From: an uncultured Oscillospiraceae bacterium
GTDB lineage: Bacteria > Bacillota > Clostridia > Oscillospirales > Oscillospiraceae
Direction: 5' to 3'
Assembly: GCA_934661715.1 (NCBI GenBank)
Contig: CAKUJL010000014.1
Coordinates: forward strand, 1 to 14,505
DNA: 14,505 bases
The position numbers and the translations under genes are program-made. Below are positions 8,371 through 13,600 of the stretch, in pieces. The notes below the pieces were generated by a model. The model made no database searches and was not told where the DNA came from. It saw only the letters and a list, made by a program, of their open reading frames with translations. Position 1 is the first letter of the stretch. Each line of letters starts with the position of its first letter.

Positions 8371-8415
8371 AAGAATCGAGCGATTGGAAAGCCTCCAATC
8401 GCTCGATTCTTATTT
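8371..8415. terminator. Long hairpin terminator between convergent genes
   Basis: The 18 bases 8371-8388 (AAGAATCGAGCGATTGGA) pair perfectly with 8394-8411 around a 5-base AAGCC loop, followed by ATTTT on the plus strand. The right arm overlaps the MATE stop codon (8410-8412). The T-run is short on both strands, but stem stability and location support a bidirectional terminator. Confidence 0.75.
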
Positions 8416-9741
8416 TGGAAGAAGCGCCTTTTTATGGCGGAAGTAATACCCATACCCCGCGAGATCTGCCAGCGCCCAGCCGATGGGGATGGCCATCCAG
8501 ATGCCCACCTCGCCGACGGGCCCGGCCAGAAGATACGCAAGCAGCACGCGCGTGCCGAGCGAGATAACTGTCAGCACGACGGACATGCCCGGCCGCTTGA
8601 CCGCGCGGTAAAATCCATAGAGAAGGAACAAGCAGCCGATGCCGACATAAAATGCGCCCTCCACGCGCAGATACAAAACGCCCGCGGCCAGAACCTCCGT
8701 CTCTCCCGCCTGCACGAAAATGCGCATGAGCGGGTTCGCAAACGCGAAGACCAGCGCAGAAATGACGAGCGAGAACGCGGCGCTTGCGATTGTCGCCTGC
8801 CGGAAGCCGGTTCTAAGCCGTTCGCGGTCGCCCGCGCCGTAGTTCTGTGCGATGAAGGTCGAAAAGGCGTTGCCGAAATCCTGCACGGGAAGATAGGCAA
8901 AGGAGTCAATTTTCACCGCCGCGGCAAAGGCCGCCATTGTAACGGGGCCAAAGGAGTCGACCAGGCGCTGGATGAGCAGAATCCCGAAGTTCATCGCCGA
9001 CTGCTGGGCGCAGGTGAGAAGCGACAGGTCAAGAATTTCCGAGAGGATGCTTCTGCGGAAGACGAGGTCCTCCTTTCCGGGCAGAAATTCGCGGCAGCGC
9101 AGGAACACATAGAGAAAAATCCCGAGCCCCGAGACATACTGCGCCAGCACCGTCGCGATCGCCGCGCCCGCAATGCCCCACGAAAACACGAGCACGAACA
9201 GAAGATCGAGCCCCACGTTGAGCAGCGCCGCCGCCCCCAGAAACCACAAGGGCGCGACCGAATTTCCCAGCGCCCGCAGAAGACAGGAAAAAAAGTTATA
9301 CAGAAACGTCGCAAGCAGCCCCGCGAAAATGATCACGAGGTATTCGCGCATGGAAAAATACAGCTCGTCCGGGATTTGCAGAAAGTGCAGAATGGGGTCC
9401 AAAAACGCGTACACGAGCGCGTTCAAAGCCGCCGTCACCGCGAAAATCAGCACAAACGCGTGCAGCACCGCGCTTTTAAGAGACCCCATGTCCTTTTTCC
9501 CGAGATAGATCGAAAACAGCGCCCCCGCGCCCATCGAAAGCCCGAGGAACACGGACGTGAGAAACGTCATGAGCGTATACGCAGAGCCCACCGCCGCCAG
9601 CGCGTTTTTGCCCAGCGCCTGCCCGACGATGAGGGTATCGGCGATGTTATAAAACTGCTGGAGCAAATTCCCCGCGATCATCGGCAGCGCAAACAACAGC
9701 AGCCCCTTTGTGATATTTCCCTTTGTCAGATCGCGATACAT
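8410..9741 (-). CDS. MATE-family multidrug/cation efflux transporter
   Basis: The 443-residue polytopic membrane protein has the two-repeat, twelve-helix layout and length of MATE transporters, which export organic cations, drugs or metabolites using Na+ or H+ gradients. The N terminus DLTKGNITKGLLLFALPMI with NLLQQFYNIADTLIVGQALG (25-44) is diagnostic for the NorM/DinF-like bacterial group. LLRALGNS (154-161) closes the first half and QNYGAGDRERL (299-309) marks the second repeat. The start at 9741 (MYRDLT) was chosen by family alignment; its SD is poor (GGGTGGG). ATG at 9756 (MGGCIMYRD) is a possible alternative. The frame is open back to 10113, but that extension crosses this gene's own promoter and the folT leader. 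It is a single-gene transcript; the substrate is unknown. Confidence 0.92.
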   Translation of the reverse strand: MYRDLTKGNITKGLLLFALPMIAGNLLQQFYNIADTLIVGQALGKNALAAVGSAYTLMTFLTSVFLGLSMGAGALFSIYLGKKDMGSLKSAVLHAFVLIFAVTAALNALVYAFLDPILHFLQIPDELYFSMREYLVIIFAGLLATFLYNFFSCLLRALGNSVAPLWFLGAAALLNVGLDLLFVLVFSWGIAGAAIATVLAQYVSGLGIFLYVFLRCREFLPGKEDLVFRRSILSEILDLSLLTCAQQSAMNFGILLIQRLVDSFGPVTMAAFAAAVKIDSFAYLPVQDFGNAFSTFIAQNYGAGDRERLRTGFRQATIASAAFSLVISALVFAFANPLMRIFVQAGETEVLAAGVLYLRVEGAFYVGIGCLFLLYGFYRAVKRPGMSVVLTVISLGTRVLLAYLLAGPVGEVGIWMAIPIGWALADLAGYGYYFRHKKALLPK

Positions 9742-9931: not shown

Positions 9932-9959
9932 TTGCTATTTTCGAAAAAAACGATATACT
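9932..9959 (+). promoter_or_regulatory. Promoter of the folT-folC operon
   Basis: TTGCTA (9932-9937), a 16-base spacer and TATACT (9954-9959). Transcription would begin near 9966, giving a leader of about 315 bases that contains the riboswitch. It is divergent from the MATE promoter, with about 110 AT-rich bases between the two -35 boxes and no other recognisable element there. Confidence 0.65.
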
Positions 9960-10033
9960 GAGATGCAGGAGATTTTTTAAGTGCGGGAAAGATGTGGCCC
10001 CGCAAATTTAACGATCTAAGCGTAGTCGAACGC
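9960..10033 (+). other. 5' leader ahead of the riboswitch, unassigned
   Basis: About 70 transcribed bases precede the aptamer. TGCGGG (9982-9987) can pair with CCCGCA (9999-10004), and GCGT (10020-10023) with ACGC (10030-10033). AGGAG at 9967-9971 stands 9 bases before a GTG (9981) that opens a 12-codon frame closed by TAA at 10017-10019. None of this belongs to the known THF aptamer, and function is unknown. Confidence 0.35.
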
Positions 10034-10126
10034 TGCATGAGTAGGAATGACGCGTCAAGTACCGGTCGGATGGGAGGTTGCCGCCGGGCGAAGGAATCTT
10101 TCCGCGGTGTCATTTCGCATCCGCAT
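10034..10126 (+). promoter_or_regulatory. THF (tetrahydrofolate) riboswitch aptamer
   Basis: The segment follows the THF-aptamer pattern in order: GAGTAG (10039-10044); AATGACGCGTCAAGT (10046-10060); GGATG (10068-10072); GCGAAG; CGCGGTGTCATT (10105-10114... ); GCATCCGC (10117-10124). Predicted pairings are AATGAC with GTCATT (10046-10051 with 10109-10114), CCGG with CCGG (10062-10065 with 10084-10087), the long-range GGATG with CATCC (10068-10072 with 10118-10122), and a short closing ATG/CAT. The next genes are folT and folC, exactly the expected targets. Folate binding would be expected to lower expression of folate uptake. Confidence 0.9.
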
Positions 10127-10241
10127 TTTTGTGCAGGAACCTCTGGGTCGGGCGCTTGCCGCCTGAATCAGAACTTCCTGAAGAATAATCTGTTACATTC
10201 GCTGCGTAAGTAAAAAATTCATCTGCTGCATCACCATATTT

Positions 10242-10271
10242 CAACCTCCTCCCATCATTTTGATTCGGAGG
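10242..10271 (+). promoter_or_regulatory. Likely expression platform: anti-SD and SD of folT
   Basis: CCTCC (10245-10249) is complementary to the folT SD GGAGG (10267-10271), which lies 8 bases before the ATG at 10280. The wider segment CAACCTCC (10242-10249) is exactly complementary to GGAGGTTG (10073-10080) in the aptamer. No terminator hairpin with a T-run is visible between the aptamer and folT, so control of translation is more likely than attenuation. Mutually exclusive pairing is inferred. Confidence 0.6.
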
Positions 10272-10279
10272 CTATTTTT

Positions 10280-10894
10280 ATGTCTAAAAACCAATCCGCA
10301 GCCATCGCGCGTGTGCATACGCGCAGTCTCAAAAACGTCAGAACCCTTGTTGTATCCGCCGTCCTCGCCGCCATCAGCGTGGTGCTGGCCCGGCTCATCA
10401 TCCCGATGCCGGACGTGTCGACGCGCTTTTCCTTAGAAGCCGTGCCGATCTTCCTGGCGGGCATGTTCTTCGGCCCCGTTCCGGGCGCACTCGTCGGCTT
10501 CTCGGCGGACCTGGTCGGCTGCCTGTTCTCGGGCTATGGATACAACCCGCTGTTCTGTGTCCCGCCGATCCTCTACGGCCTGTGCGCGGGCTTCTTCCGC
10601 CCGATGCTGGAGAAAAAGACAAATCCGCTGACCATCGGTCTGGCGTTTTTGCCTGCCATCGTCTTCGGCTCGATCCTCTATCAGAGCTGGTCTCTGGCCT
10701 TTGTCTACGGCGGCGACGCGTTCGAGGCGTTTTTCCTGACGAAGCTCGCGTCCCGCTCCATTCAGTTCGGCATCACGTTTGTGCTGGACGTTGTGATCGT
10801 CTGGCTGCTTTATAAAGCGAAGGTGTTCGCCGCGGCAAAGCTCTGGCCGCCTGTGGCTGCGGCGCAGAAGCCCTCGCGCGAGGACGGATTCTAA
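10280..10894 (+). CDS. folT: Folate-specific ECF transporter S component
   Basis: The 204-residue membrane protein is the substrate-binding S component that captures folate and works with the shared ECF energising module (EcfA, EcfA', EcfT), which is not in this window. After a short cytoplasmic N terminus, hydrophobic helices start at about 22. The hallmark STRFSLEAVPIFLAGMFFGP (47-66) is followed by PGALVGFSADLVG (68-80) and YGYNPLF (86-92), as in FolT. Length is in the normal range. The start at 10280 has GGAGG 8 bases upstream. Identification is reinforced by the THF riboswitch upstream and folC 18 bases downstream, which together form a folate-salvage operon. Confidence 0.94.
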   Translation: MSKNQSAAIARVHTRSLKNVRTLVVSAVLAAISVVLARLIIPMPDVSTRFSLEAVPIFLAGMFFGPVPGALVGFSADLVGCLFSGYGYNPLFCVPPILYGLCAGFFRPMLEKKTNPLTIGLAFLPAIVFGSILYQSWSLAFVYGGDAFEAFFLTKLASRSIQFGITFVLDVVIVWLLYKAKVFAAAKLWPPVAAAQKPSREDGF

Positions 10895-10912: not shown

Positions 10913-12184
10913 ATGACGCTGGAACAAGCACTGCATTACATCCACGCTGTCTGCTGGAAGGGCAGCATTCCGGGCCTGGAGCGCATCAACGCCCTGCTCG
11001 ACAAGATGGGTCATCCCGAACGCGCGTGCAAATTTGTCCACGTGGCGGGCACGAACGGCAAGGGCTCGACCTGCGCGATGCTGGCCTCGATTTTTAGAGC
11101 CGCTGGCTACAAGACGGGTCTTTACACCTCGCCCTACATCCTGCGCTTCAACGAGCGCATTCAGATCAATGGGCAGCAGATTCCGGACGAGGCCATCTGC
11201 GAGCTGACCGAGTACATCAAGCCCATGGCCGACTCGATTTTTGAGCAGCCGACGGAGTTCGAAATGGTCACGGCGCTGGGCTTTGAATACTTCAAGCGTG
11301 AAAAATGCGACATCGTCATCTGCGAGGTCGGCATGGGCGGCGAATTTGACGCGACGAACGTCATCCTGCCCCCCGAGGCGGCGATTCTTTGCAACATCGG
11401 TCTGGACCACACCGAGGTTCTGGGCGACACGCTGGAAAAGATCGCGGCCACCAAAGCCGGCATCATCAAGCCCGGCTGCGACGCCGTCATCTACCGCGAA
11501 AAGCCCTCCGTGGAGGCGGTGTTTGAAGAGCGCTGCAAAGCCGTCGGCGCGAAGCTCCACAAGGCGGACTTCGATTCCATCAAGTTAGAATCGCACGGCC
11601 TTGCGGGACAGGTCTTCTCCTGCGGCAGATTTGAGCATCTGAAGCTCCCGCTTCTCGGCGAGCACCAGCTTCATAACGCGGCGGTCGTTCTCGCGGCGGT
11701 CGACGCGCTGAAAGAAAAGGGCTGGAACCTCACGGACGAGGCCGTGCGTGAAGGCCTTGAGAGCGTGCAGTGGCCCGGCCGGTTCCAGATCGCGCGGGAA
11801 AATCCGCTTTTCATTATCGACGGCGGCCACAATCCGCAGTGCATCGAAGCGCTCGTCAAGAACATCGACGATTACCTGCAAGGAAGGCCCCTTACCATTC
11901 TCACCGGCGTTCTCGGCGACAAGGACTTCCACTGCATGTACAGTAACGTCGCGCCCTACGCCAAAGAGTTCATCACCATCACGCCCGACAATCCCCGCGC
12001 GATGCAGGCCGCGGACCTCGCCGCGTATGTCAGCCAGTTCGGAAAGCCCGCGACGGCCTGCGAGACGGTCGAAGAAGGCGTCCGGCTTGCCGTTTCCCAC
12101 GCGGGAGAAAACGGCGTGGTACTGTGCTACGGCTCTTTGTACATGATCGGAGACATCGACGCCGCGCTCAAAAAGCTTTCCTGA
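10913..12184 (+). CDS. folC: Folylpolyglutamate synthase / dihydrofolate synthase
   Basis: The 423-residue cytosolic Mur-ligase-family enzyme adds glutamates to folates, keeping them in the cell, and may also form dihydrofolate from dihydropteroate. The P-loop is GTNGKGS (46-52), then TSPYILRFNERI (72-83), EVGMGGEFDATNV (138-150), LDHTEVLGDTL and ATKAGIIKPG with the probable carbamylated Lys at 181. The C-terminal domain has WPGRF (287-291), DGGHNP (303-308) and a Gly/Ser-rich CYGSLYMIG end. Length is normal. The start lies 18 bases after folT; its SD is weak and purine-rich (AAAGAAAGAAG), so coupling to folT and thus to the riboswitch is likely. Whether it has both activities cannot be told from sequence. 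Confidence 0.95.
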   Translation: MTLEQALHYIHAVCWKGSIPGLERINALLDKMGHPERACKFVHVAGTNGKGSTCAMLASIFRAAGYKTGLYTSPYILRFNERIQINGQQIPDEAICELTEYIKPMADSIFEQPTEFEMVTALGFEYFKREKCDIVICEVGMGGEFDATNVILPPEAAILCNIGLDHTEVLGDTLEKIAATKAGIIKPGCDAVIYREKPSVEAVFEERCKAVGAKLHKADFDSIKLESHGLAGQVFSCGRFEHLKLPLLGEHQLHNAAVVLAAVDALKEKGWNLTDEAVREGLESVQWPGRFQIARENPLFIIDGGHNPQCIEALVKNIDDYLQGRPLTILTGVLGDKDFHCMYSNVAPYAKEFITITPDNPRAMQAADLAAYVSQFGKPATACETVEEGVRLAVSHAGENGVVLCYGSLYMIGDIDAALKKLS

Positions 12185-12238: not shown

Positions 12239-13534
12239 TCATCCGGCCGTCCCGGAAGTAATTTTATCAAACAGCGACTGCATTGCTTCCACCGAGCAGC
12301 CCGCGATATGGTGCGCAGCGGCCAGCTCCGGCGTGTAGTCGGACAGGAGCATGGGCAAATAATTGTACCAGCCCGTGTCCGGGTTTTTCGTGATGAGGTT
12401 CACCGTCGGAAGAAGCGCGTAGTCCTCCACAAACGCGCCCGTTTCGTCCTTGCAGATCGTGACGCTTGCCATGCCGCCGAGCATATTCTCGGGGTCTGTC
12501 TGGTGCGACAGGAAATTTCCGAGCGAGTAGAAAACCGGTACCTCTCTGCCGCCCTCCGCCATGAGGACCCGCGCAGGCTGCACCACGTGCGGATGGCCGC
12601 CGATGATGAGATCCGCGCCGCCGTCGGCCAGCACCTGCGCCCACGTTTTTTCATACTCGTTGGGAGAAAACGTCCCCTCTTCGCCCCAGTGGGCAAAGAC
12701 GATGACAAAATCGGCCGCTTCCTTCGCCCGGGTCAGATCGTCTCGCACCGCGTCGAAGTTCACGAACCGGTCGACCATCCAGCGCTTTGCCGGCAGACCG
12801 CCGTTGAGCCCGTAGGTGTAGTTGAGCATCGCGATACGGATGCCGTTTTTCTCGACCACGCGGAGCTTCTGCGCGTCCTCCTCGGAGTCGTGGATGCCCA
12901 GAAGCGTCACGCCGGGGTAGACCTCCCGCCAGTAGCGGCAGGTGTCCAGAATGCCGGTCTCGCCCTTGTCAAAGCAGTGGTTCGTCGCGCCGGTCACCAC
13001 GCGAAAGCCCGCCTTCACGAGCGCGTCCGCCACATGCACCGGAGAGCCGAAGCTCGGGTAGTTGTCGTAAAGCGCGGGGTCCGTGACAAGGATCGTCTCC
13101 TGATTGATGCAGGCGATGTCGTATTCCTGCGCGACCGGCGCAATGGCCGCGTAGAACGGGGAAAAATCGTATCCGCCGTCCGGCAGCTCTGCCGACCAGT
13201 AGACCGTGTTGTGGATCAGATTATCGCCAACCGCCATCAGCGTCACGCGGGCCGGTTCCGGTTCCGGCTCTGTCGGAAGCGATTGCGCTTCTTCTGAAGC
13301 AGGTTCTTCCGCCACCGTTTCAGGCACGGCGGTCTCCGGCGCCTGTTCCGGGACAGCAGCTTCCTGCATCGTGCCTTCCGGCGAAGCCTCCGCGTTGGCC
13401 GCTCCTGTATTCCTTGCCGCCGTCCAGACCCAGCGGAAGCCAAAAAACAGCGCCGCCAGCAGCAAAACGATCAGCACGCCGCCCAGCGCCGCGCCCGAGC
13501 CGCCCTTTTTCTTTTTTGAAAATCTCCCGGCCAT
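12239..13534 (-). CDS. Membrane-anchored CapA-family protein (metallophosphatase fold)
   Basis: The 431-residue protein has a basic N terminus (SKKKK), one membrane helix (about 14-36), a Pro/Glu/Ala-rich linker (50-94) and an outward-facing CapA-type domain from about 96. CapA/PgsA proteins, calcineurin-like in fold, take part in poly-gamma-glutamate or other cell-surface polymer metabolism. Visible motifs are MAVGDNLIHN (100-109), NQET (144-147), TGATNHCFDKG (181-191), FAHWGEE (280-286), IGGHPHVVQP (311-320) and YSLGNFLSH (336-344). The start at 13534 has AAAGGAG 6 bases upstream; a slightly longer frame to 13561 lacks one. No capBC or other polymer genes are adjacent, so a polyglutamate role is unproven; many clostridial genomes carry lone CapA homologues of unknown role. 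Confidence 0.9.
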   Translation of the reverse strand: MAGRFSKKKKGGSGAALGGVLIVLLLAALFFGFRWVWTAARNTGAANAEASPEGTMQEAAVPEQAPETAVPETVAEEPASEEAQSLPTEPEPEPARVTLMAVGDNLIHNTVYWSAELPDGGYDFSPFYAAIAPVAQEYDIACINQETILVTDPALYDNYPSFGSPVHVADALVKAGFRVVTGATNHCFDKGETGILDTCRYWREVYPGVTLLGIHDSEEDAQKLRVVEKNGIRIAMLNYTYGLNGGLPAKRWMVDRFVNFDAVRDDLTRAKEAADFVIVFAHWGEEGTFSPNEYEKTWAQVLADGGADLIIGGHPHVVQPARVLMAEGGREVPVFYSLGNFLSHQTDPENMLGGMASVTICKDETGAFVEDYALLPTVNLITKNPDTGWYNYLPMLLSDYTPELAAAHHIAGCSVEAMQSLFDKITSGTAG

Positions 13535-13600
13535 TTCAGGCTCCTTTCCGCTGCAAAGCACGCCGCATTTCGTCGTTTTCTCTTGTCAACTGACGCTTTG

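Follow-up and report, generated by a model that had tools for sequence, protein, structure and literature searches.

The folT leader in the window (the whole stretch of 14,505 nucleotides analysed here) is best explained as a THF-I riboswitch that acts as an OFF switch and whose expression platform works by loop capture, an assignment that we regard as probable. Ligand loop L3 of the aptamer and the Shine-Dalgarno (SD) sequence of folT would compete for a single strand that lies just upstream of the SD. Pairing in the cell, the direction of control (folate turning folT off), the choice between translation and termination, and switching as such are all what we infer from the comparison of leaders.

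The aptamer, its ligand loop and the downstream genes

By aptamer, ligand residues and gene, the element is classified as a THF-I riboswitch. RF01831 (gathering score 36) is the sole Rfam match in the window above its gathering score. Assignment to THF-II does not apply: the Rfam matches of the window include no folE-motif aptamer and the downstream gene is folT. The features used below are as follows.

9932–9959, + strand: sigma-70-like promoter match (TTGCTA, 16 nt, TATACT), 9/12 consensus matches
10035–10128, + strand: THF-I riboswitch aptamer, RF01831, 65.6 bits, model positions 1–99 of 99
10073–10080, + strand: capture segment GGAGGUUG in ligand loop L3, residue roles placed by alignment
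10118–10122, + strand: pseudoknot receptor CAUCC, 4/5 pairs with 10073–10077
10242–10249, + strand: platform strand CAACCUCC, complement of L3, with the conserved core AACCUCC at 10243–10249
10248–10256, + strand: second possible L3 register, CCUCCCAUC with GAUGGGAGG at 10069–10077, 9 nt exact
10248–10271, + strand: predicted SD hairpin, CCUCC 10248–10252 with GGAGG 10267–10271 and an inner AUC/GAU stem
10267–10271, + strand: Shine-Dalgarno sequence of folT, from the sequence
10275–10279, + strand: U-run immediately 5′ of the start codon, from the sequence
10280–10894, + strand: folT, folate-family ECF transporter S component (TIGR04518, 98.2 bits, cut-off 60)
10913–12184, + strand: folC, folylpolyglutamate/dihydrofolate synthase family (TIGR01499, 401.5 bits, cut-off 162.65)

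Folate-related genes thus lie 3′ of the aptamer in the order TIGR04518, TIGR01499, and folT starts with ATG at 10280. The closest relative found is the leader of Oscillospiraceae isolate POC01 (L001; FolT identity 91%). The stretch scanned for promoters holds two promoter-like sites (0.6 expected), a number that is not evidence of function. Downstream of the promoter-like site and ahead of the aptamer there is a short hairpin, TGCGGG/CCCGCA (9982–10004, from sequence and predicted fold). CTGCA (10033–10037) and TGCAG (10132–10136) could pair across a U-rich bulge and so lengthen P1 beyond what the Rfam model covers. The neighbours on the opposite strand encode a MatE-family transporter (8410–9741, −) and a PGA_cap-domain protein (12239–13561, −).

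The pseudoknot joins loop positions 8–12 to receptor positions 18–22 (PMC6614920); by alignment these are GGAGG 10073–10077 and CATCC 10118–10122 in the window, with a mismatch of G10076 opposite A10119. At the pseudoknot site THF contacts U7, U35 and U42 (PMC11477058, PMC9881143), and this site alone is reported to be essential for regulation (PMC9881143). The three uridines align with U10042, U10071 and U10078, and A8, A34 and G44 with A10043, A10070 and G10080. One legend gives U42 and U35 as the counterparts of loop U6 and U13 (PMC6614920). We took the loop numbering in 5′–3′ order (U6 = U35, U13 = U42), since this fits both the A10:U20 pair of that paper and the A:U that 146 of 147 leaders have at 10:20 (see below).

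The capture segment 10073–10080 consists of the loop strand of the pseudoknot (10073–10077) followed by U42 (10078), U43 and G44 (10080), so its capture would compete directly with ligand binding. The earlier note had placed a GGATG/CATCC ligand contact next to the loop segment; this has to be corrected, as the aligned pseudoknot is GGAGG/CATCC and lies inside the capture segment.

The platform strand and the SD hairpin

The sequence elements on which the earlier note had built a competition between loop, anti-SD and SD are present exactly: GGAGGTTG (10073–10080), CAACCTCC (10242–10249), GGAGG (10267–10271) and ATG (10280). CAACCTCC is complementary to GGAGGTTG in L3. There are two overlapping copies of CCTCC in CCTCCTCC (10245–10252). 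The proposal that CCTCC can hide the SD holds, but the predicted hairpin uses the second copy (10248–10252) and not the one originally named. The minimum free energy (MFE) of 10243–10279 is −8.3 kcal/mol, and the SD has an unpaired probability of at most 0.01 in the unconstrained window leader.

No exact complement to loop 10068–10082 within 10129–10279 is longer than 9 nt, a length reached by CCTCCCATC (10248–10256) with GATGGGAGG (10069–10077), a register absent from the earlier note and, by eye, only partly kept in relatives. Dinucleotide shuffles of the window leader reached at least 8 nt in 35/2000 cases and at least 9 nt in 5/2000. The window complementarity is by itself suggestive, being only moderately unlikely by chance; the case for complementarity above chance comes from conservation among relatives, not from the window alone. 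Against 30 shuffles of the window leader, the L3 complement gave p 0.03 and the complement to the P1 3′ strand p 0.37, so that a P1-coupled platform is not indicated here.

We propose that, when THF is scarce, L3 (GGAGGUUG), a mimic of the SD, would pair over 7–9 bases with AACCUCC(U) just 5′ of the SD. Capture would occupy the outer bases of CCUCC, the strand needed to close the SD hairpin; the hairpin could then not close fully and folT would be translated. With THF at the pseudoknot site, L3 would be held by the receptor and the ligand (U42), which would free AACCUCCUCC, and the freed CCUCC would close on the SD and turn folT off. Transcription termination may contribute as well, through the U-run that follows the hairpin. 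AACC would serve as a toehold, a role suggested by the predicted structures, in which only 2–3 bases are common to the capture strand and the 5′ arm of the SD hairpin. The OFF direction is proposed from the feedback logic expected for an importer.

Nearest-neighbour energies across the 51 leaders of this layout (see below) are −12.3 to −13.9 kcal/mol for the capture duplex and −7.1 to −10.5 kcal/mol for the SD hairpin. The window leader folds to −97.7 when unconstrained and to −88.4 with both segments held unpaired, and the duplex contributes a further −13.8 if no pseudoknot penalty is charged; from these values the captured and uncaptured states appear close in energy. The aptamer fold is absent from the unconstrained MFE structure of the window leader. 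With both segments held unpaired the SD is still paired (unpaired probability 0.03–0.29), in the MFE structure with early folT codons. As models, the unconstrained and constrained folds are thus neither of them clean support for loop capture. The eight pairs inside an 11-nt hairpin loop may also impose strain.

Relatives and alternative explanations

We collected 362 THF leaders, of which 314 are non-identical, from folT relatives, from RF01831 draws within the family and the phylum of the nearest relative's genome, from searches with a loop pattern and with a platform pattern, and from relatives of three genomes. THF aptamers were found in 219/300 genomes of the family draw and 90/398 of the phylum draw. 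The loop-capture type makes up 5/149 loci among the family-draw matches listed, which stop near E 1e-16 and so under-represent it, 0/89 in the phylum draw, and 6 of the 16 aptamer-bearing folT relatives. The loop pattern gave 43 matches in 41/400 genomes; 39 lie at an aptamer and 34 have the platform. The platform pattern, which is blind to the loop, gave 12 matches in 11/394 genomes; seven lie behind THF aptamers, and all seven of these have loop GGAGGTTG. Among relatives of one loop-capture genome, 17/17 newly retrieved leaders (L369–L385) are of the type, with three further matches left out.

AACCTCC and an SD hairpin follow the aptamer at 16–144 nt in 51 of the 314 non-identical leaders, a number that is no frequency estimate because these leaders were largely gathered through the loop, platform and relative searches. 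One further regular-expression match, L196, was excluded for its A loop and P1-type leader (52 to 51). Loop GGAGGTTG occurs in 51/51 of these leaders, and the platform in 51 of the 56 leaders with this loop. The 51 fall mainly into two aptamer groups of 35 and 16; a weak aptamer tree gives groups of 32 and 15 plus four single rows. All 51 downstream proteins are FolT-like by a profile built from the same 51. An independent TIGR04518 scan of nine of them plus L345, the variant leader also listed as L110, placed 7/10 above the cut-off, with L312 and L345 below it and L376 without a match.

The aptamer-to-AACCTCC offset of the window, 115 nt, is the second longest of the 51. From the aptamer end (profile boundary) to the start codon the distance is 152 nt. 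The linker is indeed long, as the earlier note had remarked, but not unique, since 5.5% of 309 leaders equal or exceed it.

As AACCTCC belongs to the definition of the 51, conservation of AA was scored on leaders defined by CCTCCTCC alone, where AA directly precedes this sequence in 50/50 (one of them, L330, was retrieved by a pattern that requires AA). Positions −4 to −20 upstream carry 0.02–0.61 bits in the 36 leaders first profiled, 26 of which have C before AA. AACC is unpaired in the MFE structure of the SD hairpin in 43/51 leaders, has two of its four bases paired in seven and all four in one; the SD hairpin as modelled does not need AACC. Between a point 60 nt 5′ of the aptamer and the start codon, 50/51 leaders contain a single copy of GGAGGTT. 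With 30 shuffles for each leader, the L3 complement exceeds same-leader shuffles in 50/51 vs 14/246 others. The comparison gives good support to the central claim of the earlier note that aptamer loop and SD compete for one strand, in a layout common to 51 non-identical leaders, and it is further backed by the position of AACC outside the SD hairpin, the altered receptor (see below) and the scarcity of P1-strand platforms in this set.

Covariation is uninformative here: the capture helix is nearly invariant and shows no compensatory double change across the 51 leaders. Tree-corrected contrasts run in the expected direction, with six on the FolT tree (median p 0.0625) and two on the aptamer tree (median p 0.5).

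One alternative, which we think unlikely, accepts that the strand pairs with L3 and takes the hairpin to be mainly an intrinsic terminator, with control transcriptional rather than translational. TTTTT lies within 12 nt of the start codon in 51/51 loop-capture leaders vs 103/258 others, which makes added termination possible, and 50/51 pass a 5-U-in-8 rule beside the stem. But with the SD inside the stem and a U-run that stops at the start codon, sequestration would result in any case; the window hairpin, moreover, is interrupted by an internal loop, and no terminator was detected by a scan.

Another reading, which we consider quite improbable, is an ordinary P1-coupled THF-I switch, in which THF would stabilize P1, the freed P1 3′ strand would serve as antisequester, and the loop complement would be incidental, since L3 and the SD are both purine-rich. 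Action via P1 stability is the mechanism described for THF-I riboswitches in PMC11477058, and a P1 3′-strand complement exceeds shuffles (30 for each leader) in 121/246 other leaders. It does so in only 3/51 leaders of the loop-capture type and, as given above, not in the window; in addition, AACC, which lies outside the SD hairpin, is conserved, and some linkers of 16–23 nt leave scant room for another antisequester. The P1-strand leaders also bear on the pattern that the earlier note had held to count against its model, aptamers kept in relatives with the two segments absent. Most THF leaders show this pattern, but about half of them, the 121, carry a detectable P1-strand platform instead; by the shuffle test 116/246 have neither complement. 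Loop GGAGGTTG without AACCTCC occurs in five leaders, of which L140, L333 and L334 have clear P1-strand complements and L308 a weak one (p 0.13), the fifth being the variant L110.

That there is no functional coupling, loop and platform being co-kept by common descent and CCUCCUCC merely giving two registers of SD sequestration, would suit the few resolvable independent origins and the only moderate improbability of the window taken alone, but is very unlikely given that AA and the first CC are invariant while flanks, hairpin loops and linker length (16–144 nt) diverge, and that the receptor has changed in several ways almost solely in the loop-capture group.

Receptor changes, related switches and variant leaders

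We compared the receptor in 196/314 rows, those with A10 loops and an 8-letter receptor; L002, L194 and the GGGG loops lie outside this set. Receptor pair 10:20 is A:U in 146/147 of the leaders not of the loop-capture type, the sole exception being L110, which has a variant capture strand. In the loop-capture leaders it is A:U in 6/49, A-A in 22 and A-G in 21, with loop A10 kept; in the proposed capture helix the partner of A10 is the U of AACCUCC. A register shifted by three bases, using loop positions 11–15 (GGUUG), forms 5/5 pairs in 35/49 loop-capture leaders vs 1/147 others. The canonical register (loop 8–12) forms three pairs in 35/49 loop-capture leaders and four in 14. The window fits both equally, with four pairs each.

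The shifted register may be either the ligand-free state or a moved ligand-bound pseudoknot. We raise as a tentative idea, more doubtful than probable, that these leaders are a THF-I subclass of their own, its receptor having moved to the shifted register (CARCC with GGUUG) and competing with the platform for the ligand uridines U42–U43. If so, one loop would have three exclusive partners (the ligand-bound canonical receptor, the shifted receptor and the platform), and the ligand response would possibly be altered.

The loop-capture platform shares its aptamer family (RF01831), ligand residues and folT association with P1-coupled THF-I switches. It differs in that L3, rather than the P1 3′ strand, is proposed to free the SD, and in its altered pseudoknot receptor. 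By analogy it would work most like the ZTP (pfl) riboswitch, in which a platform strand likewise competes with a ligand-stabilized pseudoknot (PMC10085676). However, ZTP is an ON switch whose invader disrupts P3 and the pseudoknot to form a terminator, whereas in our proposal folT is ON in the captured state; the ZTP aptamer is also unrelated to that of THF-I. In the L5–L13 kissing loop of the cobalamin riboswitch an aptamer loop also pairs with a distant platform element (PMC9600662); that pairing uses a platform loop and forms part of sensing the bound state, whereas here pairing is proposed to be excluded by ligand. THF-II (the folE motif) likewise senses THF and controls access to the ribosome binding site (RBS), but with a small unrelated aptamer upstream of folE and the RBS in its own P1 (PMC6800512, PMC9881143). 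We found no description of a loop-capture THF-I platform in the literature searched, which did not reach the primary THF-I papers. If the proposal is right, this sizeable group of leaders shows how an aptamer can be retained through a change of expression platform, with the pseudoknot coupled directly to the SD by strand competition in a compact natural design, at offsets down to 16 nt.

Loop capture as a property of the whole class was considered and rejected. The complement to a leader's own loop averages 5.06 vs 4.97 for swapped loops in 263 leaders, which is no enrichment; own loops come out ahead only for complements of at least 8 nt (11/263 leaders vs 26/5505 swaps). When G-U pairs are allowed and each leader is trimmed to end at the start codon, 245 leaders of other types do no better than swaps (12.2 vs 12.5). 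In the same test the 32 loop-capture leaders scored have a mean percentile of 0.88, many of the swapped loops being alike.

Ten leaders (L007, L010–L014, L018, L101, L107 and L172) have loop GGGGAGTTG/GGGGAGT and terminators of the form ACTCCCC...GGGG(AGT), the 5′ arm of which complements their own loop. These GGGGAGTTG-loop leaders may be a second instance of loop capture, one that acts on transcription. L101 and L107 exceed shuffles without a P1 complement; for several leaders of this group swapped loops do nearly as well. The pair L348/L074 has 10 loop pairs, two of them G-U, but by eye also a P1-strand complement, and was not counted. In L110 (identical to L345) the platform GCAGCCTCCC pairs with loop GGGAGGTTGC through 10 pairs including one G-U, which makes this leader, on its sequence, the nearest thing to a compensated L3/platform variant. 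The L110 platform repeats the receptor GCAGCC; downstream of it come a CCCC/GGGG hairpin and, ahead of ATG, U7.
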